Assembly (NCBI GenBank): GCA_007116145.1
Contig: SKJB01000162.1
Location: 1 to 34,084 of the forward strand
DNA length: 34,084 nucleotides
Source of the DNA: Limnochordia bacterium
GTDB taxonomy: Bacteria > Bacillota > Limnochordia > Darwinibacteriales > DTU012
Direction of reading: 5' to 3'
Numbering within the stretch: the first letter of the stretch is position 1; each line of letters opens with the position of its first letter. The notes under the pieces are model-generated. The model did not search any database, was not told the DNA's origin, and worked only from the letters and a program-made list of their open reading frames with translations. Shown in pieces: positions 14,019 to 29,249 of this stretch. The position numbers were made by a program, and so were the translations under genes.

Positions 14019-14055
14019 CTGTAAACCTAGTAATATAGCTGGGCTAGGTTTACAG
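14019..14055 (+). repeat. 12-bp perfect inverted repeat in the ppk2 leader
   Basis: CTGTAAACCTAG at 14019-14030 and its exact complement at 14044-14055 are separated by 13 bases. The hairpin starts at about the predicted transcription start, so it would form the very 5' end of the mRNA, about 40 bases ahead of the GTG start of ppk2. It may stabilise the transcript or be a second operator. No T run follows. Confidence 0.65.
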
Positions 14056-14096
14056 TGTTAGAAGGTATTAGGGCAAACAGATCAGGAGATGAGTTA

Positions 14097-14900
14097 GTGA
14101 ACCAAGACGTTATAATTCAATGCAAAGACGATATTGAACTTGCGGCGTATCCGACGAAGCCCGCAGTAGAGCATGGAACGGACTCAATGGTAACGGAAAT
14201 TAAAAAGAGGGCAAAAATCATTGAAAAGCATCACGAAATTCTGATTGCCACTCGCCAATGTGGTCTACTCATTATCCTCCAAGGGATGGATGCCGCAGGC
14301 AAGGATGGCACTACTAAGCATATTGCGAGTAACCTAAATCCCATCGGCACAATAATCAATTCGTTTAAAGTGCCAAATGAGGATGAAAGGGAACATGATT
14401 ATTTATGGCGTGTGCATAATCGGGTTCCAGCACGGGGAGAAGTAGGTATTTTTAACAGATCACATTATGAAGATGTCTTAGTTCCTATGGTGACCAATGA
14501 AATTACCGCTAAAACATGCCAAAAACGCTATCGGCAAATTAATGATTTTGAAAAAATGCTTGTCGAAAATGATATTATCGTGATTAAGTTATTCCTTCAT
14601 ATTTCAAAGAGTGAACAAAAAACTAGGTTAGAGAAGCGGTTGCGAAAACCACAAAAGCAATGGAAGTTCAGTATGGCCGACTTAGAAGCAAGAAAAAAAT
14701 GGGGCGATTTTTCATGTATTTACGAGGAGACGTTATCGAAGACGAGTACCTCACACGCTCCATGGCACATTATTCCTGCAGATGATAAGCTTTATCGGAA
14801 TTATCTTGTTTCGAGATTGTTGTTAGAAGTATTTGAGTCATTAAATCTTAACTATCCCGACCTTGATCAAACATTAAAAGATATTGTTATTGAAGATTAA
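14097..14900 (+). CDS. ppk2: Polyphosphate kinase 2 family protein (polyphosphate:nucleotide phosphotransferase)
   Basis: PPK2 enzymes transfer phosphate between polyphosphate and nucleotides, usually making ADP or ATP from polyphosphate. The 267-residue product has the P-loop GMDAAGKDG at residues 63-71, SFKVPNEDEREHDYLWR, and the Walker-B-like GIFNRSHYEDVL near 117-128. The HDYLWR and NRSHYEDVL forms resemble class III enzymes, which act on both AMP and ADP. I chose the GTG at 14097 with AGGAG eight bases upstream; the frame extends up to a GTG at 14055 inside the leader hairpin, without a ribosome binding site. It converges with ppk1, the stops being only 12 bases apart. A short TAACAA/TTGTTA repeat in the gap is too weak to call a terminator. 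Confidence 0.9.
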   Translation: MNQDVIIQCKDDIELAAYPTKPAVEHGTDSMVTEIKKRAKIIEKHHEILIATRQCGLLIILQGMDAAGKDGTTKHIASNLNPIGTIINSFKVPNEDEREHDYLWRVHNRVPARGEVGIFNRSHYEDVLVPMVTNEITAKTCQKRYRQINDFEKMLVENDIIVIKLFLHISKSEQKTRLEKRLRKPQKQWKFSMADLEARKKWGDFSCIYEETLSKTSTSHAPWHIIPADDKLYRNYLVSRLLLEVFESLNLNYPDLDQTLKDIVIED

Positions 14901-14912
14901 CAACATTATTTG

Positions 14913-16964
14913 TTAGCGTGCATTAAGCATATAACTTTGGGAATCAATCTCTGTTTCTTCACCCATAGCATGAATCTTCTCATAGTCGCCGGTTGCAGTA
15001 AGGTGCCAACTCTGGACATTATCACCAAGGTGAATGGATAGTATTTTAAGTACTTGCTGTTGAATGTCGATTTGTTCGATAGGGAAAAGAATTTCCACTC
15101 TACGATCTAAATTGCGAGGCATTAGGTCGGCACTCCCTAGATACAATTTTGGGTTTCCTCCATTGCAAAAATAGAAAATGCGCGTGTGTTCCAAAAACCT
15201 CCCAACAATCGATGTTACTTTAATATTGTCGCTAATACCCTTTAAACCTGGCCTCAAACAGCATATCCCTCGGATCTGGAGCTCTACACGGACGCCTGCT
15301 TGCGATGCTCTATAGAGGGCTGCAATGCATTCTTTATCGACAAGCGAGTTCAGTTTTAGGATAATGTGACCTTTACCATCTTTACCATGAGCATGAATTT
15401 CGTCATTGATTAGTTCTAGAATGTCTTGCCTTAGGAATTCTGGAGCCACTAGTAATTTTTTGTACTTTTGGTGATTGGCATAACCTGTTAATGAGTGAAA
15501 TAATAACAGGACATCAGAGCACATTTCCTTGCGACAAGTAAATAGACTGAAATCGCAATACAACCTGGCTGTTTCTGGATTATAGTTGCCTGTGCCTAGG
15601 TGTGCGTAGCTAACAATAGATTTATTTTCCTGGCGCAACACTAATGTCATTTTTGTATGTACCTTTAGGCCCACCAACCCATAAATAACATGGACACCAG
15701 CTTTTTCTAGTTCTTGGGCCCAGGAGATATTGTTAGCCTCATCGAAACGTGCTCGCAGCTCAACTAAAACTGTAACCTGTTTGCCAAGAGAACGGGCACG
15801 GATTAAAGCTTTTATAATATCTGCGTTTTTCCCTACACGATACAGAGTTTGTTTAATCGCTAAAACATCTGGTGATTCGGCAGCAGCCCAGAGAAATTCT
15901 TCTACTGGCTGAAAGCTGTCGTAGGGATGATATAATATGAAATCATTTTTCTTGATGGAATCAAAAATATTCCTGACTAGTGGGCGAGTGGTCATGAGCT
16001 TTGGTTGAATCGGTGCATATTTTAAGTCTGGTCGATTAACGCTTGTTAGTTCCCATAGACATGATAACGCCAAGGGGTAGGTAGTTCTAATAACCTGATC
16101 GGGTGTGACGTGAAGGTTTTCTACTAATATTTTAAGGATATGGTCGGGGATTTTGTCTTGGACCTCTAACGAGACAACACCGCCAAATTGTCTCAGTTCT
16201 ACCTGTTCTTGCATAAGTGTCCACAGATCGGCCGCGTCATCATCATCTAATTCGATGTCAGCATCGCGAATTACGCGAAACGGACTTGCAGCTAGTACAG
16301 AATACCCTGGAAACAATAGGTTGAGATTGTTAGCGATAATATCCTCTAACCAGACAAAGCTTTGTTCATTACAGTCCTCTTCGACTAAAATTGATTGCAG
16401 AGAGACCAACCGCTGTAATCCATCGGGTAGTTTCAAGCGTGCGAAACCCTCGTTACCCTGGGAATCACAAACAATTATAGCTAGGTTGACGCTTAGACTA
16501 GAAATATGTGGAAATGGGCGCGTAGGATCAAACGCCATAGGGGTAAGTATAGGAAAAATCATTTCGCGAAAGTAATCGGTTAAGTGACCCTTTTGCTCGT
16601 TCGATAGCTTAGAGTACTCGACGATGTTTATCTTCTCAGCTGCAAGTAACGGACTTAGTTCGTCATTCCAAATTTTTGCGTATTCTGCAAGCTGCTCGTT
16701 TACTTTTTTGTGAATTTTTGCTAGTTGTTCAGCTGGAGATAATCCATCTGGTGGTGCTTCTAGTGCACCTTTTACTAACTGTCTACGCAGGCCAGAAACG
16801 CGAATCATATAGAATTCTTCCATGTTACTAATATAGATGGCTAGATATTTAATTCGTTCCAACAGTGGATGTCGCGTATTGCGGGCTTCTTGCATTACTC
16901 GATAGTTGAAATTTAACCAACTGAGTTCACGGTTAAAAAAATTAGTTGGATCTGGATTTTTCAT
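14913..16964 (-). CDS. ppk1: Polyphosphate kinase 1
   Basis: PPK1 reversibly polymerises the terminal phosphate of ATP into inorganic polyphosphate. The 683-residue length is normal. The start is NFFNRELSWLNFNYRV, as in the PPK1 N-terminal domain. The two phospholipase-D-like C-terminal domains carry the catalytic histidines: H436 in LKVHTKMTL, which corresponds to the phosphorylated histidine, and H593 in FLEHTRIF. Also seen are DPTRPFPHISSLS, PYDSFQPVEEF, AIKQTLYRVG and SADLMPRNLDRRVE. The ATG at 16964 has a perfect AAGGAGGAG seven bases upstream; an in-frame start at 16988 has none. A promoter lies at 16993-17020. With ppk2 and the nearby pst operon it forms a phosphate-storage neighbourhood. 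Confidence 0.96.
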   Translation of the reverse strand: MKNPDPTNFFNRELSWLNFNYRVMQEARNTRHPLLERIKYLAIYISNMEEFYMIRVSGLRRQLVKGALEAPPDGLSPAEQLAKIHKKVNEQLAEYAKIWNDELSPLLAAEKINIVEYSKLSNEQKGHLTDYFREMIFPILTPMAFDPTRPFPHISSLSVNLAIIVCDSQGNEGFARLKLPDGLQRLVSLQSILVEEDCNEQSFVWLEDIIANNLNLLFPGYSVLAASPFRVIRDADIELDDDDAADLWTLMQEQVELRQFGGVVSLEVQDKIPDHILKILVENLHVTPDQVIRTTYPLALSCLWELTSVNRPDLKYAPIQPKLMTTRPLVRNIFDSIKKNDFILYHPYDSFQPVEEFLWAAAESPDVLAIKQTLYRVGKNADIIKALIRARSLGKQVTVLVELRARFDEANNISWAQELEKAGVHVIYGLVGLKVHTKMTLVLRQENKSIVSYAHLGTGNYNPETARLYCDFSLFTCRKEMCSDVLLLFHSLTGYANHQKYKKLLVAPEFLRQDILELINDEIHAHGKDGKGHIILKLNSLVDKECIAALYRASQAGVRVELQIRGICCLRPGLKGISDNIKVTSIVGRFLEHTRIFYFCNGGNPKLYLGSADLMPRNLDRRVEILFPIEQIDIQQQVLKILSIHLGDNVQSWHLTATGDYEKIHAMGEETEIDSQSYMLNAR

Positions 16965-16992
16965 GATACGCTCCTCCTTGCTAATCAATACT

Positions 16993-17020
16993 ATTATACT
17001 ACAAATAGCTGATAGAGCAA
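16993..17020 (-). promoter_or_regulatory. Promoter of ppk1
   Basis: On the minus strand TTGCTC (17020-17015) is followed after 16 bases by a perfect TATAAT (16998-16993). Transcription would begin near 16986, giving a leader of about 22 bases that contains the AAGGAGGAG ribosome binding site. Confidence 0.65.
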
Positions 17021-17072
17021 GAGAGAATCAAGTACATATCGCATAGGATTACGAAAAAGAGGGGTGAGCATC

Positions 17073-17294
17073 ATGGCAAAAAAGAAGGTTAAAGTGTGTA
17101 AAAAGTGTTCAGGATTTAATGTGACGAAGTTAGACGAAGTGATGAAGGAGAAACACTATAAAGTGGGATGTATTGGTAAATGCTCTAAGAAATACCCCAA
17201 ACTTGCCGGAAAAGTCTATGGTTACATTGATGGTGATTTTGAGGTTTGTGACACAAAAAAAGAGTTTTTGGCAAAAATTGCTAAGTTATCTTAA
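17073..17294 (+). CDS. Small DUF1450-like (YuzB-type) cysteine-containing protein
   Basis: A 73-residue cytoplasmic protein with VCKKC near the N terminus and CIGKCSKKYP in the middle, followed by a glycine-tyrosine turn (KVYGYIDGDFEV) and C58-equivalent in EVCDTKKEF. This resembles the thioredoxin-fold ferredoxin-like DUF1450/YuzB group, where paired cysteines may bind a metal or form disulfides. The ATG at 17073 has GAGGGG eight bases upstream; a GTG at 17064 overlaps that site. It is divergent from ppk1 and precedes pepA by 77 bases. Lysine-rich composition suggests a basic protein. Function unknown; family call moderate. Confidence 0.65.
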   Translation: MAKKKVKVCKKCSGFNVTKLDEVMKEKHYKVGCIGKCSKKYPKLAGKVYGYIDGDFEVCDTKKEFLAKIAKLS

Positions 17295-17371
17295 GTGCCA
17301 AAGACCCTGAAACTCTCTCTGTATCGTTATAACAGGAATGTTAATAAGCATTTGAGTTGGAGGTAGTGTTT

Positions 17372-18853
17372 ATGAAGTTTAGAGTAGGGAATTTTGATAA
17401 TGTAGTAGAGCAAGATGCCCTGGTGTTGCTGCTTGCAGTAGGGGAGGTCCCAACGTTACCGCCTACATTAGTTAGTATTCAAGCTACTGTGGAGACGATA
17501 GTAGCCTGTAATGATTTTGAAGGTAAATTTAAGGAATCACTAGGATTTCGATTGTCGAATCCTTTGGGTCAAGTTAATAAAGTAGTATTAATTGGACTAG
17601 GCTCGAAAGCGGAAGTAGATTCGGAGAAATTGCGAAAATTGGTGGCCTGTGCTTACGGAGAAGTAAAAAGGCTTAAGAGCAAGACCGCTTCCGTCATATT
17701 GCCTGAGGGCACTGCGGTTACGTTTGCAGAGCAAACCAAGGTAATGACAGAGTCGTTTTTGATGAGCATGTACTCTTTTGATACCTATCAGGGGGAGAAA
17801 AAACCTACTGGTGTTACCGAGGTTAGTTTTATTGTAACTGAGGATGACCTCGCTGAGGCTAAGGAAGGAATAGTCGAAGGTCAGATCCTTGGAGAAACGA
17901 CTGTATTAGCTCGGCAGTTAGTCAATGAGCCAGCTAATGTGATGACGCCAGAGAATTTAGGTGAAGAAGTCGCCAAAATTGGTCAAGAAAGCGGCTTTGA
18001 GGTAGAGGTTTTCGCGGAAGAAAAAATAACTGCGTTGGGTATGACGGCATTTTTAGAGGTTGCTCGAGCTGCAGCGAACCGACCGCGATTGATTGTAATG
18101 CGCTATTTTGGAGATACAGGCAATACGCAACAGCTGCTTGGTTTGGTCGGTAAGGGTTTGACCTTTGATAGCGGTGGATTGTCTGTAAAACCCACGGAAA
18201 GCATGGTTTATATGAAGTGCGACATGGGCGGAGCTGCAGCTACTATTGGAGCCATGTCCGCCATTGCCCGACTAGGATTAAAGATAAATGTTATTGCAGT
18301 GGTGGCAGCATGTGAAAACATGATCGCAGGAAAGGGTTACCGGCCAGGAGATATTATTCAAACAATGGCTGGTAAGACAGTGTTTATTGGTAACACAGAT
18401 GCGGAAGGGCGGCTAACCCTAGCCGATGCAGTACACTATATTGTAGCGCACGAAGGGGTAGCTCAGGTGGTGGATATTGCCACTCTCACTGGAGCTGCGG
18501 TGATAGCCCTAGGACACTCAACATCGTTAGTGGTTACCAATAATCAGGAATTGTATGCGAGTTTAGAAAAAGCGTCACAAGTTTCAGGAGAAAAGGTGTG
18601 GCAAATGCCATCGTTCCCTGAGTATCAAGAAATGCTAAAATCCAAGGTGGCTGATCTTACAAATTCTGCAGGTCGAGCAGGATCGAGTATTACAGCAGGC
18701 CTTTTTATCGGAGAGTTTGTTCAGAAAAAGCCCTGGTTACACATTGACATTGCAGGTACAGCCTGGACCGAGAAGCCTGAGGATTACATTTCCTTAGGTG
18801 GCACTGGGGTGGGCGTACGATTACTATATCATTTGGTTAAAGAGTTGTCGTAA
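17372..18853 (+). CDS. pepA: Leucyl aminopeptidase (M17 family)
   Basis: Cytosolic two-metal aminopeptidase that removes N-terminal residues from peptides. The 493-residue product has the M17 metal ligands K261, D266 (in GKGLTFDSGG), D284 (in KCDMGGAAA), D343 and E345 (in NTDAEGRL), plus catalytic K273 and R347. ARQLVNEPANVMTP marks the boundary between the N-terminal macro-like domain and the catalytic domain. The ATG at 17372 follows GGAGGT with good spacing; the frame runs back to a TTG at 17357 inside that site. It may be co-transcribed with the small gene upstream. A large hairpin terminator follows at 18901. Confidence 0.95.
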   Translation: MKFRVGNFDNVVEQDALVLLLAVGEVPTLPPTLVSIQATVETIVACNDFEGKFKESLGFRLSNPLGQVNKVVLIGLGSKAEVDSEKLRKLVACAYGEVKRLKSKTASVILPEGTAVTFAEQTKVMTESFLMSMYSFDTYQGEKKPTGVTEVSFIVTEDDLAEAKEGIVEGQILGETTVLARQLVNEPANVMTPENLGEEVAKIGQESGFEVEVFAEEKITALGMTAFLEVARAAANRPRLIVMRYFGDTGNTQQLLGLVGKGLTFDSGGLSVKPTESMVYMKCDMGGAAATIGAMSAIARLGLKINVIAVVAACENMIAGKGYRPGDIIQTMAGKTVFIGNTDAEGRLTLADAVHYIVAHEGVAQVVDIATLTGAAVIALGHSTSLVVTNNQELYASLEKASQVSGEKVWQMPSFPEYQEMLKSKVADLTNSAGRAGSSITAGLFIGEFVQKKPWLHIDIAGTAWTEKPEDYISLGGTGVGVRLLYHLVKELS

Positions 18854-18900
18854 CTCTAAATACCGAGGCTGGGTAATACCATCCATCAAAGCGAAAAGCG

Positions 18901-18974
18901 AGACCCATACATCCTTTAGGACTGAGCTCTTGTGTAGAAAGAGCTCTATACGAAGGAAAGTATGGGTCTTTTGG
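18901..18974 (+). terminator. Large two-tier hairpin terminator after pepA
   Basis: An outer 10-bp repeat AGACCCATAC / GTATGGGTCT (18901-18910 and 18960-18969) encloses an inner 8-bp repeat GAGCTCTT / AAGAGCTC (18924-18931 and 18939-18946), with a CCTT/AAGG pair between them. The outer arm is followed by TTTT-rich sequence. It separates pepA from the pst operon. The nested form is larger than a simple terminator. Confidence 0.7.
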
Positions 18975-18995
18975 TTATCTGTGACAAAAAACCTG

Positions 18996-19052
18996 ACTTT
19001 ACATAGATTTGATAATCCTCTGATGGTGCACTTTACATAGTAACTCTATACT
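18996..19052 (+). promoter_or_regulatory. Probable PhoP-controlled promoter of the pst operon
   Basis: ACTTTACATAG occurs twice (18996-19006 and 19030-19040). TTTACA at 18998 is followed 11 bases later by TTGATA at 19009, and another TTTACA stands at 19032; this fits TT(A/T/C)ACA-type Pho boxes with 11-bp spacing. A good -10, TATACT, is at 19047-19052. With transcription starting near 19059 the boxes fall at about -61, -50 and -27, where PhoP binds on activated Firmicutes promoters. No proper -35 is present, as expected of an activator-dependent promoter. Confidence 0.6.
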
Positions 19053-19073
19053 AGTATTTGTAGGGGTAAATAA

Positions 19074-19109
19074 ATGAAAACCTACATAGACAAAAGGGAG
19101 GCGTTATAA
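19074..19109 (+). CDS. Possible 11-codon leader ORF before pstS
   Basis: ATG at 19074 opens an 11-residue frame (MKTYIDKREAL) that ends two bases before the pstS ATG. TAGGGG stands seven bases upstream. The frame covers the pstS ribosome binding site AGGGAGG, so its translation could influence pstS. It may equally be chance; no sequence property proves translation. Confidence 0.25.
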   Translation: MKTYIDKREAL

Positions 19110-19111
19110 AG

Positions 19112-20158
19112 ATGAATAAGAGAATGGTGTTAGTAGTTAGTCTTGTTTTTGCATTAGTTGTCATTAATATGGGTTCTGTATTTGCGGCCAATTTACAAAT
19201 TGATGGTGCTGGAGCTAGTTTTCCTTATCCTATTTATTCCAAGTGGTTTGATGAATATCGGAAGATAGACCCTTCAGTCCAAATCAACTACCAGTCCATT
19301 GGCAGTGGTGGTGGAATTCGCCAGATCAGTGCGAAAACAGTTGACTTTGGTGCGACTGATGCTCCAATGACGGACGAAGCATTAGCTGCGTTAGATCGAG
19401 AGTTGATACACATTCCAACAGTAATTGGTTCGGTTGCTGTGGTCTACAACATTCCTGGAGTTCCATCTGGTCTAAAATTAACTGGCGATATTGTAGCCGA
19501 TATTTACTTGGGTACGATTACAAAATGGAATGACGTTCGTATAACAGAGATTAATCCTGGTGTTAATCTACCAGACTTATCTATTGCTGCTGCTAGACGT
19601 TCAGATGGCAGTGGGACAACCTTTACATTTAGTGATTACTTGAGTAACATTAGCACTGTTTGGAAGGAGACAGTGGGTACCGGTAGTGCTTTACGTTGGC
19701 CTGTTGGTTTAGGCGCTCGAGGAAATGAGGGTGTAGCGGGTCTTGTGCGCCAATTACCTGGTGCGATTGGTTATGTTGAACAAGCATATGCAGAACAGAA
19801 CAATTTATCGCAGGTTGCTCTTAAAAACAAGGCTGGATATTATGTAATGCCATCGTTAGTTGGTGCAAGTTTAGCTGCCGCTGGAGTTGAAATGCCAGAT
19901 GATTATCGGGTTTCCATTGTGAATGCGGACGGACCAGATGCGTATCCAATTGCTACATTTACTTGGTTACTTGTTTATAAAAACGCTTTTGACCAAGCAA
20001 AGGGCCAGAAATTAGCCGATTTTATCTGGTGGGCTATTCATGAGGGTGATTCGTTTGCGATAGAGTTACACTACTCGCCACTACCCGAAGCTGTGATTTC
20101 AAAGCTACAAGGCACGTTAAAACAACTAAACTTTAACGGAAATACCTTCTTAAAATAA
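19112..20158 (+). CDS. pstS: Phosphate ABC transporter substrate-binding protein PstS
   Basis: High-affinity phosphate receptor of the PstSCAB importer. The 348-residue precursor has a signal peptide of about 25 residues ending VFA-AN, with no lipobox cysteine, so it should be a free periplasmic protein. Phosphate-binding segments are GAGASFPYPIYSKW, GSGGGIRQISAKTVDFGATDAP and the SDGSGTTFTFSDYL loop. GAGAS and SDGSGTT supply the backbone and side-chain contacts to phosphate in this family. AGGGAGG precedes the ATG. It is the first gene of the eight-gene phosphate operon and is likely induced by phosphate starvation through the boxes upstream. Confidence 0.97.
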   Translation: MNKRMVLVVSLVFALVVINMGSVFAANLQIDGAGASFPYPIYSKWFDEYRKIDPSVQINYQSIGSGGGIRQISAKTVDFGATDAPMTDEALAALDRELIHIPTVIGSVAVVYNIPGVPSGLKLTGDIVADIYLGTITKWNDVRITEINPGVNLPDLSIAAARRSDGSGTTFTFSDYLSNISTVWKETVGTGSALRWPVGLGARGNEGVAGLVRQLPGAIGYVEQAYAEQNNLSQVALKNKAGYYVMPSLVGASLAAAGVEMPDDYRVSIVNADGPDAYPIATFTWLLVYKNAFDQAKGQKLADFIWWAIHEGDSFAIELHYSPLPEAVISKLQGTLKQLNFNGNTFLK

Positions 20159-20196
20159 AATACTTTTAAATGTTGGTATAAGGAGTGAGAACCTTA

Positions 20197-21186
20197 ATGC
20201 ATCAACTACCATCTAAGGGCAAAGGCGCAACGCCTTCTGCCCTTTCGAGGTCAAAAATGCACGAAACGCTGTTAGTCGGAAGTGTTCCCGATCGCGTGTT
20301 CAAATTTGTTACAGCAACTGCTGCCGTGGTTGTGCTCGGTTTAGTTAGTATGATTGTATTTCAGTTGACCACAAAATCCTGGGAATCGATAACTCGGTAT
20401 GGGTTAGCGTTTATCACTAGTGACATGTGGGATCCTGTTTTTCATGAATATGGCGCTTTGCCATTTATCTTTGGCACAGTCGCTTCTTCGATTATTGGTT
20501 TATTAATTGCAGTGCCTGCTAGTTTAGGTGTTGCGATTTTCCTATCTGAGCTCGCGCAAAAGAGAATTCGACGACCAGTTACGTTTTTAGTCGAAGTATT
20601 AGCGTCGATTCCTAGTGTTATTTACGGTCTATGGGGTGTATTTGTATTAATACCACTTATCCGCAGTGTTCAACCGTTCATTCAAACACGACTTGGTTTT
20701 TTGCCCTTTTTTCAAGGTCCACCCTTTGGGTATAGTCTGTTTACTGCGGGCGTTATCTTAGCTATTATGATTATTCCCACCATTACCAGTTTAAGTCGCG
20801 ACGCTTTAAACGCTGTTCCAAATCATCAGCGTGAGGCAAGTCTAGCTTTAGGTGCTACTCGCTGGGAGACCATTTGGAATGTTGTATTACCCTATAATAA
20901 GTCAGGGATTATTGGTGCTATTATGTTAGGACTAGGGCGTGCTCTCGGTGAAACGATGGCGGTTACGATGGTGATCGGTAATCAACCAGAGATTAGTATG
21001 TCCATTTTCATGCCAGCGCAAACCATGGCTAGTTTAATTGCCAATGAATTTAATGAAGCAACAGAAGCTATTCATTTGAGTGCGCTAATCGAAATTGGAT
21101 TTTTACTGTTCTTGGTAACACTTACGCTTAATATTATCGCTAAACTATTGATGATTCGCGTACGAGGAAAGGGGGCTCACAGGTGA
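20197..21186 (+). CDS. pstC: Phosphate ABC transporter permease PstC
   Basis: Inner-membrane permease of the Pst importer, about 329 residues. Six or so hydrophobic segments follow a 40-residue polar N terminus. Typical stretches are ASIPSVIYGLWGVFVL, an insert around QTRLGFLPFFQG found in PstC, and the coupling-loop region REASLALGATRWETIW with the EAA-type sequence before LGRALGETMAV. The frame opens at a GTG at 20185 that lies within the AAGGAG site; the ATG at 20197, 11 bases after the site, is the more likely start. It follows pstS by 38 bases and overlaps pstA by four. Confidence 0.95.
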   Translation: MHQLPSKGKGATPSALSRSKMHETLLVGSVPDRVFKFVTATAAVVVLGLVSMIVFQLTTKSWESITRYGLAFITSDMWDPVFHEYGALPFIFGTVASSIIGLLIAVPASLGVAIFLSELAQKRIRRPVTFLVEVLASIPSVIYGLWGVFVLIPLIRSVQPFIQTRLGFLPFFQGPPFGYSLFTAGVILAIMIIPTITSLSRDALNAVPNHQREASLALGATRWETIWNVVLPYNKSGIIGAIMLGLGRALGETMAVTMVIGNQPEISMSIFMPAQTMASLIANEFNEATEAIHLSALIEIGFLLFLVTLTLNIIAKLLMIRVRGKGAHR

Positions 21187-22025
21187 GTTGCCGTCGTAAG
21201 TTTATAGACAAAGTTATGATTTTTGTCCCTTGGCTGTGTGTCGTTGTAACTGTGATTCCACTAATTAGTATTCTCGGCTATCTTATTTATAAAGGGAGTC
21301 AAACTCTAAATGTCGCTTTTATTACCCAGCTTCCAAAACCAGTTGGTGAGTCTGGTGGTGGAATGGCTAACTCGATAATGGGAACTGGAATTGTCGTGGG
21401 CTTAGCTGGAATTTTTGGAATTCCTATCGGTGTTTTAGCAGGGGTATACTTGGCTGAATTCGGTAAACACACGAAATTAGGGTGGATAGTTCGTTTCTTG
21501 GCCGATGTTCTCCAAGGAGTTCCATCAATTGTCATAGGTATTGTTGCCTATACGGTTGTGGTTGTGCCTATGGGTAATTTCTCTGCCTATGCAGGTGCTG
21601 TAGCTTTGGCCATGATGCTAATTCCATTTCTTACACGCACAACAGAGGAAGCCATATTAACGGTTCCCGAAGATATCAAAGAGGCTGGGTTAGCTCTGGG
21701 GCAGCCGTATTGGAGAATTATTCTTGGTATTGTGCTCCGCAGTGCCCGTGGTCCCATTCTGACGGGTATTATGTTAGCAATTGCTAGAATTGCTGGTGAG
21801 ACTGCACCGTTACTATTCACTGCGCTAAATAATCGTTTTTGGCATCGGGGGTTAAATGGTCCAATTTCCACTCTAACCGTGCAAATATACAGCTATGCAA
21901 TAGCTCCATTTAACGACTGGAATGCGCAAGCCTGGTCTGGGGCGTTAGTACTCATTTTATTGGTTACGCTATTAAATATTTTAGTTCGCACCGTAGCTCG
22001 GTCTCGTTATATTGAGCGGTCTTAA
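21183..22025 (+). CDS. pstA: Phosphate ABC transporter permease PstA
   Basis: Second permease subunit of the Pst importer, 280 residues with about six transmembrane segments. Characteristic stretches are GGGMANSIMGTG near residue 60, GVPSIVIGIVAY, and the coupling loop around KEAGLALGQPYWRII followed by AIARIAGETAPLLFTAL. The GTG start at 21183 overlaps the pstC stop as GTGA, implying translational coupling. It pairs with PstC to form the channel energised by the two PstB proteins that follow. Confidence 0.95.
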   Translation: MSCRRKFIDKVMIFVPWLCVVVTVIPLISILGYLIYKGSQTLNVAFITQLPKPVGESGGGMANSIMGTGIVVGLAGIFGIPIGVLAGVYLAEFGKHTKLGWIVRFLADVLQGVPSIVIGIVAYTVVVVPMGNFSAYAGAVALAMMLIPFLTRTTEEAILTVPEDIKEAGLALGQPYWRIILGIVLRSARGPILTGIMLAIARIAGETAPLLFTALNNRFWHRGLNGPISTLTVQIYSYAIAPFNDWNAQAWSGALVLILLVTLLNILVRTVARSRYIERS

Positions 22026-22047
22026 TAATTTCAAAGGAGGGTTTTTC

Positions 22048-22881
22048 ATGAGTATTGCTGCCGTTGAACGAAGTGTAGATCGCTCAGTGGTTAAACCATT
22101 GATTGCACCAAAAATAGGTTTAGAGCAGACATCCGTTATCACTACAAAGGATTTATCGGTGTACTATAGAGAACTGGAGGCCATTCGGTCTGTTTCTATG
22201 ACTATTACTAGTAAAGCCATAACCGCCTTAATAGGACCCTCTGGTTGTGGTAAATCTACTTTCTTACGCACTCTTAATCGCATGAATGACACCGTTCTAG
22301 GTTTTTCCATTAACGGAGAGGTAGTGGTTGATGGTGAACGGATTTATAGTTCAAATGTCGATACAATCGCACTTCGCAAAAAAATAGGGATGGTCTTTCA
22401 ACGGCCGAACCCTTTTCCCATGTCGATTATTGACAACATAACATGGGCTCTTACATTTCATGGAATTCGCCGTAGGGATGAGCGCGAGGCAATTGGTGTG
22501 GAAAGCTTAAAACGAGCAGGGTTGTGGGATGAAGTCTGTGGTCGTTTGAAAGATCCAGTGTTTGCGTTATCTGGTGGTCAGCAACAAAGATTATGTATTG
22601 CACGAGCAATTGCGTTGCAGCCAACGATATTACTAATGGATGAGCCGACTTCTGCTCTAGATCCTATAGCAACTCGCGTAGTGGAAGATTTAATGATCTC
22701 ATTAAAAGAGGATTATACTGTTGTATTGGTCTCTCATAACATGGAGCAAGCAGCTCGGGTTTCGGATCAAACGGCATTTTTCTTGATGGGAGAGTTAGTC
22801 GAATACTCAGCAACCGAGAGTATGTTTTCTAATCCAAAAAACAAAACTACGGAAGATTATATTACTGGACGCTTCGGATAG
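22048..22881 (+). CDS. pstB: Phosphate ABC transporter ATP-binding protein PstB (first copy)
   Basis: ATPase of the Pst importer. With the ATG at 22048, behind a strong AAAGGAGGG, it has 277 residues. Walker [10 protein letters not shown] at 63-71, the Q-loop in [12 protein letters not shown], signature LSGGQQQRL near 174-182, Walker B LLMDEP at 195-200 and the switch histidine H230 are all intact. The frame extends upstream to 22012 over the pstA end, but without a ribosome binding site. Its N terminus is about 25 residues longer than that of the second copy ([13 protein letters not shown]...), and it diverges from typical PstB in [10 protein letters not shown]. The tandem arrangement is like pstBA/pstBB of Bacillus. 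Confidence 0.95.
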
Positions 22882-22892
22882 GAGGTAGCTAT

Positions 22893-23648
22893 ATGCCAAG
22901 CAATAAAATAAGTGTAACCGACTTAAATTTGTACTATGGTCATTTACATGCGTTAAAAAGCATTAATCTTAGTATTCATCCGCAAGAGATAACTGCCTTT
23001 ATTGGCCCCTCGGGGTGTGGCAAATCTACCATTCTCAAGACCCTAAATCGAATGAACGACTTGGTTGAGGGATGTAAGATTACAGGAAAAGTTTTATTAG
23101 ACAGCGAAGATATTTATGGTAACGTTGATTTGAATTTACTTCGAAAGCGCGTCGGGATGGTGTTTCAAAAACCAAACCCGTTTCCAAAGTCGGTTTATGA
23201 TAATGTGGCTTATGGTCCACGTTTGCATGGTATCAAGAGTAAGGCAGTATTGGACGATATCGTAGAAAAGGCATTGAAGGACACAGTAATCTGGGATGAA
23301 GTTAAAGATCGCCTGCGAGATAACGCTTTAGGGCTATCGGGCGGTCAGCAACAACGGTTGTGTATTGCTCGGGCGCTAGCAGTGCAGCCTGAAGTATTAT
23401 TAATGGATGAACCAACATCCGCACTTGATCCGACGTCAACAGCAAAAATCGAAGAGTTGGTTACTGTGTTGAAAGCAGATTATACGATTGTAATAGTGAC
23501 CCATAATATGCAGCAAGCAGCGCGCATATCTGATCAGACAGCTTGCTTTTTAATGGGCGAAATCATTGAATGTAATTGTACAAACCAATTATTTTCCGAT
23601 CCAAAAGACAGACGTACAGAAGATTATATAACTGGGAGGTTTGGCTAG
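22893..23648 (+). CDS. pstB: Phosphate ABC transporter ATP-binding protein PstB (second copy)
   Basis: Second PstB ATPase, 251 residues, closer to the family norm in length and sequence. Walker [10 protein letters not shown] lies at residues 38-46, followed by [45 protein letters not shown] and a THNMQQAAR switch region. It begins 11 bases after the first copy, behind AGGAGGT, and its TAG overlaps the GTG of phoU by one base. The two copies share most of their catalytic core, so they stem from a duplication, and could form a heterodimer or serve alternative conditions. Confidence 0.96.
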
Positions 23649-24301
23649 TGAGACATCATTTTGATTCTTTGCTTGATCAACTGAATGATGCAATGATTGT
23701 GATGGGTTCATTGATTGAATCTGCTATATCGAGTGCAACAAAGGCGCTTGTTGAGCAAGATAAGCAACAAGCCTTAAAAGCAATAGCGTTTGACCAGGAA
23801 ATTGATCAAAAGGAGAAAGATATTGAGGCACTTTGTCTAAAGTTGCTTCTCCAGCAACAACCAGTGGCGCGTGATCTACGACAGATTTCTGCAGCGCTAA
23901 AAATGATTACGGATATGGAGCGAATTGGAGATCAAGCAACGGATATTTCGGAGATAACCATTCTTTTGGCGGACACATCGTATATAAAAAAGCTTGAACA
24001 TATCTCGCTAATGGCGATAGAAACTGGTAAAATGGTTACAGACGCAGTGGATGCATTTGTGCAGAATGATCTTGTAAAAGCACATGGGGTAATCGATGCA
24101 GATGACATCGTTGACAACCTGTTTGTGACAGTAAAAAATGATCTGATTGTTCTAATTAATGAGGATGTTGCCAATGGCAGTCAAGCCATGGATTTGTTGA
24201 TGGTGGCCAAATATTATGAGCGCATTGGTGATCATGCAGTAAATATTGCTGAGTGGGTAGAATTTTCAATAACAGGTACACACCGAAACAGCTTAAAGTA
24301 G
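23648..24301 (+). CDS. phoU: Phosphate-signalling regulator PhoU
   Basis: PhoU couples Pst transport to the PhoR kinase and prevents Pho activation when phosphate is plentiful. The 217-residue all-helical product shows both PhoU repeats: DQEIDQKEKDIEALCLKLL with PVARDLRQISAALKMITDMERIGDQATDIS, and later LLMVAKYYERIGDHAVNIAEW. The two ERIGD(Q/H)A motifs bind metal clusters in known structures. The start is the GTG at 23648, one base overlapping the pstB stop (TAGTG), with GGGAGG eight bases upstream; the frame is open into pstB but those codons belong to the overlapping gene. It is followed by the two-component genes. Confidence 0.95.
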   Translation: MRHHFDSLLDQLNDAMIVMGSLIESAISSATKALVEQDKQQALKAIAFDQEIDQKEKDIEALCLKLLLQQQPVARDLRQISAALKMITDMERIGDQATDISEITILLADTSYIKKLEHISLMAIETGKMVTDAVDAFVQNDLVKAHGVIDADDIVDNLFVTVKNDLIVLINEDVANGSQAMDLLMVAKYYERIGDHAVNIAEWVEFSITGTHRNSLK

Positions 24302-24316: not shown

Positions 24317-25000
24317 ATGAGTATGATTTATTATGTCGAAGATGATACTTCAATTCGTGATGCAGTTGTATATGCACTAGAAGCAACAGAATTTAAGGCT
24401 GAGGGGTTCGAAGATGGAGCAACCCTTTTTACTAAATTGAAGTCGAAAATACCTGATCTCATCCTTCTGGATATTATGCTACCAGGAGAAGACGGAATTC
24501 ACATTCTTAAGCATTTACGATCTGATCAACGTACAGCCAACATTCCGGTTATCCTCATTACTGCCAAGGGTTCCGAGTTTGAAAAAGTTATTGGGCTCGA
24601 CAGTGGTGCAGATGATTATGTTGCGAAGCCATTTGGTGTGATGGAATTAATATCACGTATAAAGGCAGTATTACGAAGAATTCCGAAAAAAAAAGATGAC
24701 GAGAAAATAGTGATTGGTAACATTGCTATTGACGCCTATGAGTATGAAGTTAGTGTTGCAGGGAGAAAATTGGAGCTAACCCTAAAAGAATTTGACCTGC
24801 TCTATTGTTTGATGAAGAATAAAGGGCGGGTTTTTTCTAGGAATGAGCTCCTGGATCTAATCTGGGGTTACGATTCAGAGGGTGAAACACGCACAGTGGA
24901 TGTGCACATTGGAACGATTCGGCAGAAACTCGGTGATTTTGGTACTATGATCGAAACAGTGCGTGGGGTAGGTTATAAGTTTACCAGGAATGAGGGATAG
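24317..25000 (+). CDS. phoP: OmpR/PhoB-family phosphate response regulator
   Basis: A 227-residue response regulator. The receiver domain has acidic pair D9-D10, phosphoacceptor D52 in LLDIMLPGEDG, T82 and K104 (AKPFG). The C-terminal winged-helix DNA-binding domain includes LTLKEFDLLYCLMKN, VFSRNELLDLIWG and the terminal VRGVGYKF hairpin. Its place directly after phoU and before the kinase gene marks it as the Pho regulator (PhoP in Firmicutes usage, PhoB in Proteobacteria). It probably acts on the boxes upstream of pstS and may act on other promoters here. The spacing to phoU is 15 bases and to phoR two bases. Confidence 0.93.
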   Translation: MSMIYYVEDDTSIRDAVVYALEATEFKAEGFEDGATLFTKLKSKIPDLILLDIMLPGEDGIHILKHLRSDQRTANIPVILITAKGSEFEKVIGLDSGADDYVAKPFGVMELISRIKAVLRRIPKKKDDEKIVIGNIAIDAYEYEVSVAGRKLELTLKEFDLLYCLMKNKGRVFSRNELLDLIWGYDSEGETRTVDVHIGTIRQKLGDFGTMIETVRGVGYKFTRNEG

Positions 25001-26715: not shown

Positions 26716-26765
26716 CTATTCGTTAATACGCCCCTTCATCGTTGAAGGGGCGTATTAACGAATAG
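26716..26765. terminator. 23-bp perfect hairpin after phoR
   Basis: The arms 26716-26738 and 26743-26765 are exact complements over 23 bases, with a TCGT loop. It begins 15 bases after the phoR stop and probably ends the pst-pho transcript, although there is no T run on the plus strand. The long perfect match with a tetraloop is more than most terminators have; a repeat element is possible. Confidence 0.65.
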
Positions 26766-26798: not shown

Positions 26799-26830
26799 GT
26801 CCACGGGTGAAGCCGTGGGCTTTATATTTA
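26799..26830 (+). terminator. GC-rich hairpin plus T-rich tail; terminator or IS200/IS605-type end remnant
   Basis: GTCCACGG and CCGTGGGC (26799-26806 and 26813-26820) pair over eight positions including one G-T, with a GTGAAG loop, followed by TTTATATTTA. The shape fits an intrinsic terminator. The wording GGTGTGTCCACGGGTGAAGCCGTGGGC also recalls ends of IS200/IS605 elements and the RNAs of TnpB, but no transposase gene is nearby. Confidence 0.5.
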
Positions 26831-26831
26831 A

Positions 26832-26887
26832 TCTTCAAGATTTCTTCAAAATGAATTTAGATTCCCTTTAGCTTTCTCCTCTATACT
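26832..26887 (+). promoter_or_regulatory. Promoter region with 11-bp-spaced direct repeats for the secreted-protein/polyferredoxin module
   Basis: TCTTCAA occurs at 26832-26838 and 26843-26849, exactly 11 bases apart; TTTAG occurs at 26856-26860 and 26867-26871, also 11 apart. A good -10, TATACT, is at 26882-26887, with no clear -35. Direct repeats at one helical turn are the usual target of OmpR-family regulators. Transcription would begin near 26894, 25 bases before the ATG at 26919. Confidence 0.5.
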
Positions 26888-26918
26888 GTAGACAAATGAT
26901 GGAGAGGGGTTTGATGTA

Positions 26919-27596
26919 ATGATAAAACGATTGGTTTTTGCGATGGTGCTAATTAGTTTCTTGGTATCTGGAGTGGCTGCTAGTGAAGAATCTTCCTTAA
27001 CTGGCAAAGATTTTGTACGAATGGGGGAATTTAAAGAAATTGTTGGGATCTTAGAGACTTGTCCGGATGAGGAATGGTACTGTCAAACTGCAGAAATTCT
27101 TTATGAGATCCACTTAGGAGATCATGACTTTCAGAGAGAGATCGGTCTCAATCTAACCCCAGGTGCCGAAGTCGTTGTCACGGGCTTTGTGTACGGAAAT
27201 GATATGGCGGTAGTTTCCATAACAACTCCAGTGACATATCAATTACGGACTATGGCTGGTGTGCCTCTTTGGGCAGGAAGAAGTAGAGTTGCACAGCTAG
27301 CGGCGGCGGAGGGTTTTACGGATTCGAGTGCGTTTGGTGCAGAAGGAGGTTTTGGGGACTTCGACCTAGTTTCTGGTGAAGAACCAATTAAAGAAATCCA
27401 TGAACAACCGAGTGCAGGTGTTGTTGATGATCAGCTCGAGCGTCGTAGAGGCGAAGGCTTGTATTGGCTACAACAGCAAGATGGGCTAGCTAGTGAAGGG
27501 TCTAGAGGACTTGCTAGCGGATCTTATGTTGCCGACGCAGAAATAGACTGTGGCGAAACAACCCCAGAAGTACAACTAGTAGAGTCTGATGAGTAA
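26919..27596 (+). CDS. Secreted OB-fold-like protein of unknown function with GFGD-rich segment
   Basis: I do not recognise a named family. The 225-residue protein has a signal peptide of about 21 residues (MIKRLVFAMVLISFLVSGVAA). Residues about 38-120 form a compact beta-rich domain with TCPDEEWYCQ (C48 and C55), YEIHLGDHDFQREIGLNL and PGAEVVVTGFVYGNDMAVVS, closing with PLWAGR; this looks like a small OB-fold-type domain. Residues 132-149 are glycine/phenylalanine-rich (GFTDSSAFGAEGGFGDFDL). The remainder is polar and probably disordered, with a third cysteine, C211. It is followed 20 bases later by another secreted protein and then a polyferredoxin whose exported loop carries the same GFGD type of segment. 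A role in extracytoplasmic redox chemistry is inference. GAGAGGGG precedes the ATG. Confidence 0.75.
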   Translation: MIKRLVFAMVLISFLVSGVAASEESSLTGKDFVRMGEFKEIVGILETCPDEEWYCQTAEILYEIHLGDHDFQREIGLNLTPGAEVVVTGFVYGNDMAVVSITTPVTYQLRTMAGVPLWAGRSRVAQLAAAEGFTDSSAFGAEGGFGDFDLVSGEEPIKEIHEQPSAGVVDDQLERRRGEGLYWLQQQDGLASEGSRGLASGSYVADAEIDCGETTPEVQLVESDE

Positions 27597-27616
27597 GAAT
27601 CTAGGAGGTTCACACT

Positions 27617-28246
27617 ATGAAGTGTAAATGTATAGTTATCTGCGGAGTACTGCTTATCAGTCTGTTTAGTCTAACATCCGCTGGGCAGGCATGCCGTTTC
27701 TTTTTTAATCACTCAAGGATAGAAACTACAATCGGAACCTCTGGGACGATTGCAGTACGTGTTCTCATGGATCACAATGATTGTTCACTCGAAGGGCACG
27801 TCGAAGGTATGCAGTTTAGTTGGGAAAACGTACAAGTTACTGCTGCGTCTCCTTGGAAGGAGGTCGGTAAGGATCTCTATGAAAGATCATTCTCGGTGAC
27901 ACTTTCCGAAGTCGGAACCGGCCACTTTAAAATTTTTAAAGATTGCACACGCGAAGGCTACGAAGAGGAGTCTATTCCTATTGTCGTACATCCAGGAGGT
28001 GACATTTGGCAGAGTGCTCGCAATGGTAACTATCCATACGTAAACTACTCAGATCCACTGGTAGTAAGTGGTGAGTTCCAACTGAATGAGCAGGCTCTGT
28101 TGATAGGAGATCACGTGATTGAACTGCCGAAGACGTTGGACACATTAGAGAAGGGTGCCCACGAAGTCACAGTCTTTTACGTAGAAGCAGACGATGCCAA
28201 ACAAGCCATACTTATTGTTGGGCCAAATTACTATTATCGTTTTTAA
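27617..28246 (+). CDS. Secreted beta-sandwich-like protein of unknown function
   Basis: A 209-residue product with a signal peptide ending near residue 25 (LFSLTSAGQA), so Cys26 would be at or near the mature N terminus; the preceding GQA is not a proper lipobox. Residues about 26-125 resemble an Ig-like sandwich with C26, C56 and C110, in CRFFFNHSRIE, MDHNDCSLEGH and FKIFKDCTREGY; two histidines (H53, H61) flank C56, a possible metal site. The C-terminal 80 residues form a second beta-rich part ending NYYYRF. It lies 20 bases after the first secreted-protein gene behind AGGAGGT, and 49 bases before the polyferredoxin gene. No function can be assigned. Confidence 0.75.
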   Translation: MKCKCIVICGVLLISLFSLTSAGQACRFFFNHSRIETTIGTSGTIAVRVLMDHNDCSLEGHVEGMQFSWENVQVTAASPWKEVGKDLYERSFSVTLSEVGTGHFKIFKDCTREGYEEESIPIVVHPGGDIWQSARNGNYPYVNYSDPLVVSGEFQLNEQALLIGDHVIELPKTLDTLEKGAHEVTVFYVEADDAKQAILIVGPNYYYRF

Positions 28247-28295
28247 CATAACTACAACGTAGGCCCGATCGGATAGACGGAAGCGAGGAGTGATT

Positions 28296-29249
28296 ATGGT
28301 TGTAAGAGAGCACGGAAGAGAATTAAAGAGTAGGATCGTTACATTGTGTATCTTGGTTCTATTGGTGCTTGTTGGCGTAGGTAGCAAAACACCGGTGCAT
28401 GCGTTTGATCAAGGGTTTGGCTCTACGGATGGATTTGCCGTAGAAGATGGATTTGGAGACGCCGCTTTTGGCGATATGTCCGAGATAAATGAGGATTTTT
28501 TCGTGCACGATACCTTAGAAAAGCTCCTTCTCTTGCTGGCTTTTTCCCTGGTGAGTATAGTGATCTACTACAAAGCTCGGTTTTTGCGTACACTGCTATT
28601 AGTCACTAGTGTGTTGGTGCTAGGAATGTATATGAGTGGATTCTTGTGCCCGCTAGCAGCGGTACAGAACATCTTTCAAAAGTATCACACTGCCTTTCTC
28701 TTGATATTTCTTGTACCCATAATCCTAGCAATAACCATGGGTAGACTATTTTGCGGATATATATGCCCGTTTGGAGCCATTCAAGAGCTGTTACAAGTCC
28801 AAAAGTGGCAAATGTCTATACCAACAAAGTACATTCATACGATGCAGAAATTGAAGTATTTTTTACTGATGTACCTCGTCATTCGAGTAGTAGCGACTAG
28901 CAATATTATAGGTGTTGGGCATAGTCCGTTTGGAGCTTTGTTTAGGTTTGGCGGGACCACCACATCCATTGTAATTACCTTGCTAATTGGCTTGTTGTCG
29001 ATTTTCATCTACCGTCCGTTCTGCCAGTTTATCTGCCCACTTGGAGCCTGTTTGGGACTGACGTCTTTAGCGAACAAGAAATCACCTCTGCCGGCTCAAT
29101 GTACAGGGTGTAATCAATGCACGAAGCACTGCAAAATAGCAGCCATTTCTAAAGGGCGCATTAACAAGAGCGAATGTCTCTTGTGTGGGCAATGTGCTGA
29201 TTCGTGCTGGATTCCTAAGAGTAAGCACTTGAAAGCGAATAGTAGTTAG
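28296..29249 (+). CDS. NapH-like membrane polyferredoxin (4Fe-4S protein)
   Basis: A 317-residue integral membrane iron-sulfur protein. After a first helix (residues about 14-30) comes an exported loop of about 40 residues with FDQGFGSTDGFAVEDGFGD, then four or more helices. Cysteine motifs typical of NapH/NosR/CcoG-type proteins are GFLCPLAAVQ (C118), CGYICPFGAIQE (C153, C157) and CQFICPLGAC (C243, C247, C252). Two classical [4Fe-4S] sites close the protein: C269, C272, C275, C279 and C294, C297, C300, C304. Such proteins move electrons between the quinone pool or cytoplasm and extracytoplasmic partners. The ATG at 28296 follows GAGGAG; a GTG at 28290 lies within that site. The partner proteins are probably the two secreted products upstream. 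The electron acceptor is unknown. Confidence 0.88.
   Translation: MVVREHGRELKSRIVTLCILVLLVLVGVGSKTPVHAFDQGFGSTDGFAVEDGFGDAAFGDMSEINEDFFVHDTLEKLLLLLAFSLVSIVIYYKARFLRTLLLVTSVLVLGMYMSGFLCPLAAVQNIFQKYHTAFLLIFLVPIILAITMGRLFCGYICPFGAIQELLQVQKWQMSIPTKYIHTMQKLKYFLLMYLVIRVVATSNIIGVGHSPFGALFRFGGTTTSIVITLLIGLLSIFIYRPFCQFICPLGACLGLTSLANKKSPLPAQCTGCNQCTKHCKIAAISKGRINKSECLLCGQCADSCWIPKSKHLKANSS

Follow-up and report, generated by a model that had tools for sequence, protein, structure and literature searches.

Membrane polyferredoxins of the NapH/NosR kind are widespread and mostly of unknown purpose; in the known cases, the electrons go to NapG, an FMN domain or copper. NosR and RdhC share this membrane core, which is preceded in both by an exported FMN domain (PMC5928378), and CcoG is a cupric reductase (PMC8456105). 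The three-gene unit described here comes from a Limnochordia bacterium and encodes such a polyferredoxin (protein 3) together with two secreted proteins (proteins 1 and 2), the second of which carries a Cys/His domain; as a partner domain of NapH/NosR-kind polyferredoxins, this domain is previously undescribed. The window (the whole 34,084-nucleotide stretch of contig SKJB01000162.1, assembly GCA_007116145.1, that was analyzed) is a single contig from a draft genome of 2.76 Mb.

The original prediction of three closely spaced genes was borne out: the open reading frames are where it placed them, on the same strand (Table 1), with gaps of 20 bp (genes 1 and 2) and 43 bp (genes 2 and 3). For protein 3, inspection of the sequence suggests that the ATG at 28296, which is better spaced than the listed GTG at 28290, is the probable true start. 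Proteins 1 and 2 had been described as exported and without a recognizable family; signal peptides are visible by eye on both, searches of Pfam and NCBIfam gave no match for protein 1 and none of note for protein 2, PDB sequence searches gave nothing convincing for either, and no known unrelated family claimed them.

Table 1. Features of the three-gene unit and its upstream region (positions in the window)
Feature	Position	Strand	Remarks
Perfect inverted repeat	26716..26765	.	23-nt arms, 4-nt loop; between phoR and unit; no T-run
Terminator-like hairpin CCACGGGTGAAGCCGTGG	26799..26820	+	just 5' of unit promoter
Candidate regulated promoter of unit	26832..26887	+	direct repeat, CTTTA 26866, -10 TATACT 26882-26887
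Gene 1, protein 1	26919..27596	+	secreted, 225 aa
GF/acidic segment of protein 1, residues 132-150	27312..27368	+	
Gene 2, protein 2	27617..28246	+	secreted, 209 aa
Cys/His domain of protein 2	27692..27991	+	common to fusions of G424 and G512
Gene 3, protein 3	28290..29249	+	NapH/NosR-type membrane polyferredoxin, 319 aa
GF/acidic loop of protein 3, residues 39-62	28404..28475	+	predicted exported
First CX3CP motif, C155-P160	28752..28769	+	invariant in four sequences
Second CX3CP motif, C245-P250	29022..29039	+	invariant in four sequences
Two four-Cys [4Fe-4S] sites, C271-C281 and C296-C306	29100..29207	+	predicted cytoplasmic

Protein 3 was predicted to be a polyferredoxin with two [4Fe-4S] sites and CP motifs, and so it is: it scores above the cut-off for Fer4_5 (PF12801; 54.9 bits, cut-off 22) and has two CX3CP motifs and two four-Cys sites, the cysteines of which (C271/274/277/281 and C296/299/302/306) do not vary among four relatives. 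It has six hydrophobic segments; by the positive-inside rule, the CX3CP motifs and [4Fe-4S] sites are predicted to be on the cytoplasmic side, and the loop between segments 1 and 2 (nine acidic residues and one basic) is predicted to be outside. The models of the described families all score below their cut-offs: NapH (TIGR02163) gives 66.1 bits against 213, NosR (NF046105, which includes the FMN domain) 63.9 against 1000, with an alignment confined to the C-terminal membrane part (model 431-662), and CcoG (TIGR02745) 14.1 against 316.7. Like NapH of the NapGH quinol dehydrogenase, protein 3 combines a membrane core that bears two CX3CP motifs with two [4Fe-4S] sites at the C-terminus. Unlike NapH, it has an exported loop near the N-terminus and, in place of an adjoining NapG-like gene, a secreted Cys/His partner; neither NapG nor NapA is encoded among the genes adjoining the unit in the source or the sister genome. 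With NosR and RdhC (PceC) it shares a membrane core that lies behind an extracytoplasmic domain (and, with NosR, the two Fe-S sites), whereas the FMN-binding domain, which marks RdhC, is absent (FMN_bind matched neither protein 3 nor the fusion protein described below) and the Cys/His domain stands in its place. CcoG/RdxA/FixG are likewise membrane polyferredoxins, with metal reduction a known function, but protein 3 differs from them in its N-terminal part and its partners as well as in its score. Two further NapH-like proteins (L073 in genome G374 and L094 in G278) have a long exported N-terminal part without the Cys/His domain and are possibly other partner-domain variants of the NapH-like core.

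The original prediction had made the joint occurrence of the three genes in other genomes a test of itself. They were found together in one other genome among the 61 relatives searched, the Limnochordia MAG CSBr16_202 (G002; SKHL01000180.1), which belongs to the same family and a different genus. Gene order is identical there and the three proteins are 46, 54 and 53% identical to proteins 1, 2 and 3, respectively; the unit is flanked by cysS, an rRNA methyltransferase and a sigma factor, among others, where the source genome has pst and pho genes. In the sister MAG, the contig stops within gene 1 and so does not include the promoter. The unit is rare: protein 2 is present in two of 73 genomes of the class (the source and CSBr16_202), a two-sequence profile of it matched nothing except the source genome among 399 sampled phylum genomes, and a scan of a named genome collection with two narrow peptide patterns (which distant relatives would escape) found the sister MAG only. 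Other phyla were covered by that two-pattern scan and by plasmid and viral collections. The plasmid collection held no relative of proteins 1 or 2 and only ordinary NapH-like matches to protein 3 (the best of these, from Peptoclostridium, was set aside because its neighbors differ), and no relative was found in viral contigs. Similar secreted domains may occur in Desulfobacterota and Bacteroidota, which we take as a lead only.

The strongest argument for joining proteins 2 and 3 comes from a search of the 399 phylum genomes with a profile of protein 3. The top-scoring match outside Limnochordia, in genome G424 (L072; E 4e-39, the next being 5e-31), is a single chain made up of a signal peptide, a domain that starts with Cys, a Ser/Thr/Glu-rich linker and the polyferredoxin; a second such fusion is present in G512, of another family, with a domain 75% identical to that of G424. 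When aligned with MAFFT, Cys26, His53, Cys56, Trp80, Cys110 and Glu113-Gly114 of protein 2 fall on the same residues of the fused domains, with identical C-x26-H-x2-C spacing and gaps of two residues only. All four domains (two from Limnochordia, two from fusions) have a Cys at mature position 1, the C-x26-H-x2-C motif and a later C-x2-EG, and also have W, D, FxV and G in common. Global alignments of protein 2 with the fused domains beat shuffled sequences (p 0.0007-0.004), and the Cys/His motif occurred in 0 of 200,000 shuffles, a count that is post hoc because the motif was taken from the alignment itself. Profiles of the protein-2 pair and of the fusion pair, both shallow, were also compared with each other: P was 0.028 with signal peptides and 0.028-0.11 overall, and without signal peptides 39 of 300 column shuffles reached the score, so the similarity of the profiles is not significant when taken alone. 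In the 399 phylum genomes, a profile built from all four Cys/His domains found no member beyond the two fusions. Because a distant, protein-2-like domain is fused to the polyferredoxin in two lineages (the best evidence we have), proteins 2 and 3 most likely function together. In a separate observation on G512, spurious open reading frames about 4-5 kb from the fusion gene (L105 13771-14608) carry a repeated VSANDPINRGLK peptide, which looks like a CRISPR array read as protein.

The membrane core, with the domain left out, tells a similar story: in a tree, protein 3 groups with the two fusions (support 84/77, moderate), which score 93.6 and 99.9 bits against the NapH model (cut-off 213), and these members are set apart from 29 ordinary NapH-like proteins. 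It would be easy to regard the locus as an ordinary NapH-like polyferredoxin that lies beside two unrelated secreted proteins, since such polyferredoxins are common (110 of 399 phylum genomes at E 1e-12); we consider this very unlikely, as the gene order is conserved between genera despite different flanks, the domain is fused in two further lineages and the core tree separates these members from the ordinary ones.

Mature protein 2 holds exactly three cysteines (C26, C56 and C110), all conserved, along with H32, H53 and H103, in keeping with the predicted three cysteines and nearby histidines. It begins with Cys26, which is followed by what a low-confidence model depicts as an all-beta domain with H53-x2-C56 and C110-x2-EG. 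Because this AlphaFold model is poor (pLDDT 49), a metal or disulfide site is not visible in three dimensions, and the Ig-like and filamin folds that Foldseek returned for it are unreliable. One use of these residues would be disulfide reduction: two of the three cysteines would form a pair that is reduced and passes its electrons on to exported proteins or a small molecule, so that an iron-sulfur membrane protein would do work like that of DsbD/CcdA. The conservation of all three mature cysteines in both Limnochordia and both fusions fits this, and the CX3CP core may itself be a disulfide relay, as discussed for NosR, NapH and RdhC (PMC5928378); however, protein 2 has neither a CxxC motif nor a thioredoxin-like fold, Cys56 and Cys110 might do no more than stabilize a beta sandwich as a structural disulfide, and we judge this explanation improbable.

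We favor instead, with moderate confidence, the reading that proteins 2 and 3 work as a single device for electron transfer across the membrane, in which the Cys/His domain of protein 2 is the receiver and protein 1 an accessory. Electrons, supplied by ferredoxin or by a quinol in the membrane, would enter protein 3 from the cytoplasmic side via its two [4Fe-4S] clusters, and its CX3CP core would relay them outward. The receiving center outside would be the Cys/His domain of protein 2, located where NosR and RdhC have their extracytoplasmic FMN domain and probably built around a redox metal ion (e.g., Cu or Fe) or a thiol/disulfide of Cys26, Cys56 and Cys110. That electrons are probably exported to a previously undescribed kind of outside site is suggested by the fusion of the Cys/His domain to the polyferredoxin in two other lineages. 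Since the source genome has genes for Rnf-type subunits and for pyruvate:ferredoxin oxidoreductase, low-potential ferredoxin should be at hand, and reduced ferredoxin is a plausible donor to protein 3. No gene adjoining the unit points to a substrate. Elsewhere in the source genome (L232 2-1450, contig C65), an exported ethylbenzene-dehydrogenase-type heme-binding protein with a CISCH motif (CXXCH) is the only likely c-type cytochrome in 1.80 Mb, in which no multiheme cytochrome was found.

The electrons could also serve maturation, in the manner proposed for CcoG and MauN, with protein 3 reducing a metal (e.g., Cu2+) or a cofactor for loading into protein 2 or another exported enzyme. The conserved Cys/His set of protein 2 would suit such a role, and protein 3 does match, weakly, the model of a known cupric reductase (CcoG; PMC8456105). 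Yet that match scores 14 against a cut-off of 317, CcoG works on intracellular copper whereas the partner here is outside, and no copper-handling gene or cuproenzyme is among the window genes scanned, so we think this unlikely. The predicted electron-transfer or metal/cofactor maturation unit across the membrane is partly supported: the gene order and, with more weight, the fusions back a transmembrane redox unit of proteins 2 and 3, to which protein 1 may or may not belong.

Protein 1 was found in the Limnochordia pair only and not near the fusion genes of G424 and G512; its place in the unit is therefore tentative, and it would be an accessory in Limnochordia. Residues 37-104, modeled from two sequences, have the strand order b-b-b-helix-b-b (block pLDDT about 52-81), and the top PDB matches of the model in Foldseek are mostly OB-fold proteins (best E 2e-3), so that this part is probably an OB fold. 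The protein would thus resemble exported OB folds of the BOF/YgiW type (YgiW itself stands at Foldseek rank 15), from which it differs in having no Pfam match and fair model confidence for residues 37-104 only. Two further candidate matches were discarded as chance: an LptA-like protein in G293 and a hit inside a DNA polymerase III gene frame in G352.

A "GFGD" segment had been described as common to proteins 1 and 3. Over 17 ungapped columns, EGFTDSSAFGAEGGFGD of protein 1 and QGFGSTDGFAVEDGFGD of protein 3 are indeed more alike than expected (p about 0.001-0.0015), but the same comparison in the sister genome, where the segment is poorly kept, gave p 0.17, and when short peptides were searched for in 1.80 Mb of the source genome, unrelated open reading frames, including a DnaJ Gly/Phe region, matched equally well. 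The common Gly/Phe/acid character may reflect a common partner; as an argument for an interaction of proteins 1 and 3 the segment is weak.

The predicted repeat-containing promoter is present, with an 11-nt direct repeat (TCTTCAAGATT/TCTTCAAAATG) at 26832-26853. PhoU, a PhoB-type response regulator and a PhoR-type kinase are encoded directly upstream of the unit, with the response regulator gene at 24317-25000, and a phosphate cluster (14055-24301 of the window; PPK2, PPK1, a phosphate-binding-type protein, pst-type permease and ATPase, PhoU) precedes the PhoB/PhoR-type pair. The operon may answer to phosphate starvation, as the likeness of its promoter to that of pstS suggests: the spacing is identical to that of the pstS promoter (19031-19052), 7.8 kb upstream, a 22-mer matches at 15 of 22 positions (tied best window-wide), and the 2.76 Mb genome has exactly two copies of CTTTA-N8-CTCTATACT, one at pstS (19031) and one at the unit (26866). 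Repeats precede both -10 boxes (the 11-bp repeat at the unit, a repeated CTTTACATAG at pstS). One could go further and see the unit as part of the phosphate-starvation response encoded upstream, serving phosphorus acquisition; this is possible and rather doubtful, since the pattern was derived from these two sites themselves and the likeness is unremarkable when 33 or more bases are compared (ranks 9 to 224). As for the other upstream elements, the 15-nt core of the inverted repeat does not recur anywhere in 1.80 Mb of the source genome, the region holds two terminator-like hairpins where 2.2 are expected by chance, and the hairpin just before the promoter resembles an IS200/IS605-type end.

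Taken at its boldest, the protein-2 domain would be a new extracytoplasmic beta-sandwich metal/thiol redox domain in the place of the flavin domain of NosR-type polyferredoxins, and the mark of a new, flavin-free system of transmembrane electron export, an idea we hold tentatively and at less than even odds. A partner of a further kind, encoded next door in one lineage and as part of the same chain in others, offers a handle on where polyferredoxins of this kind send their electrons, and a unit of two proteins is small enough for expression and measurement.
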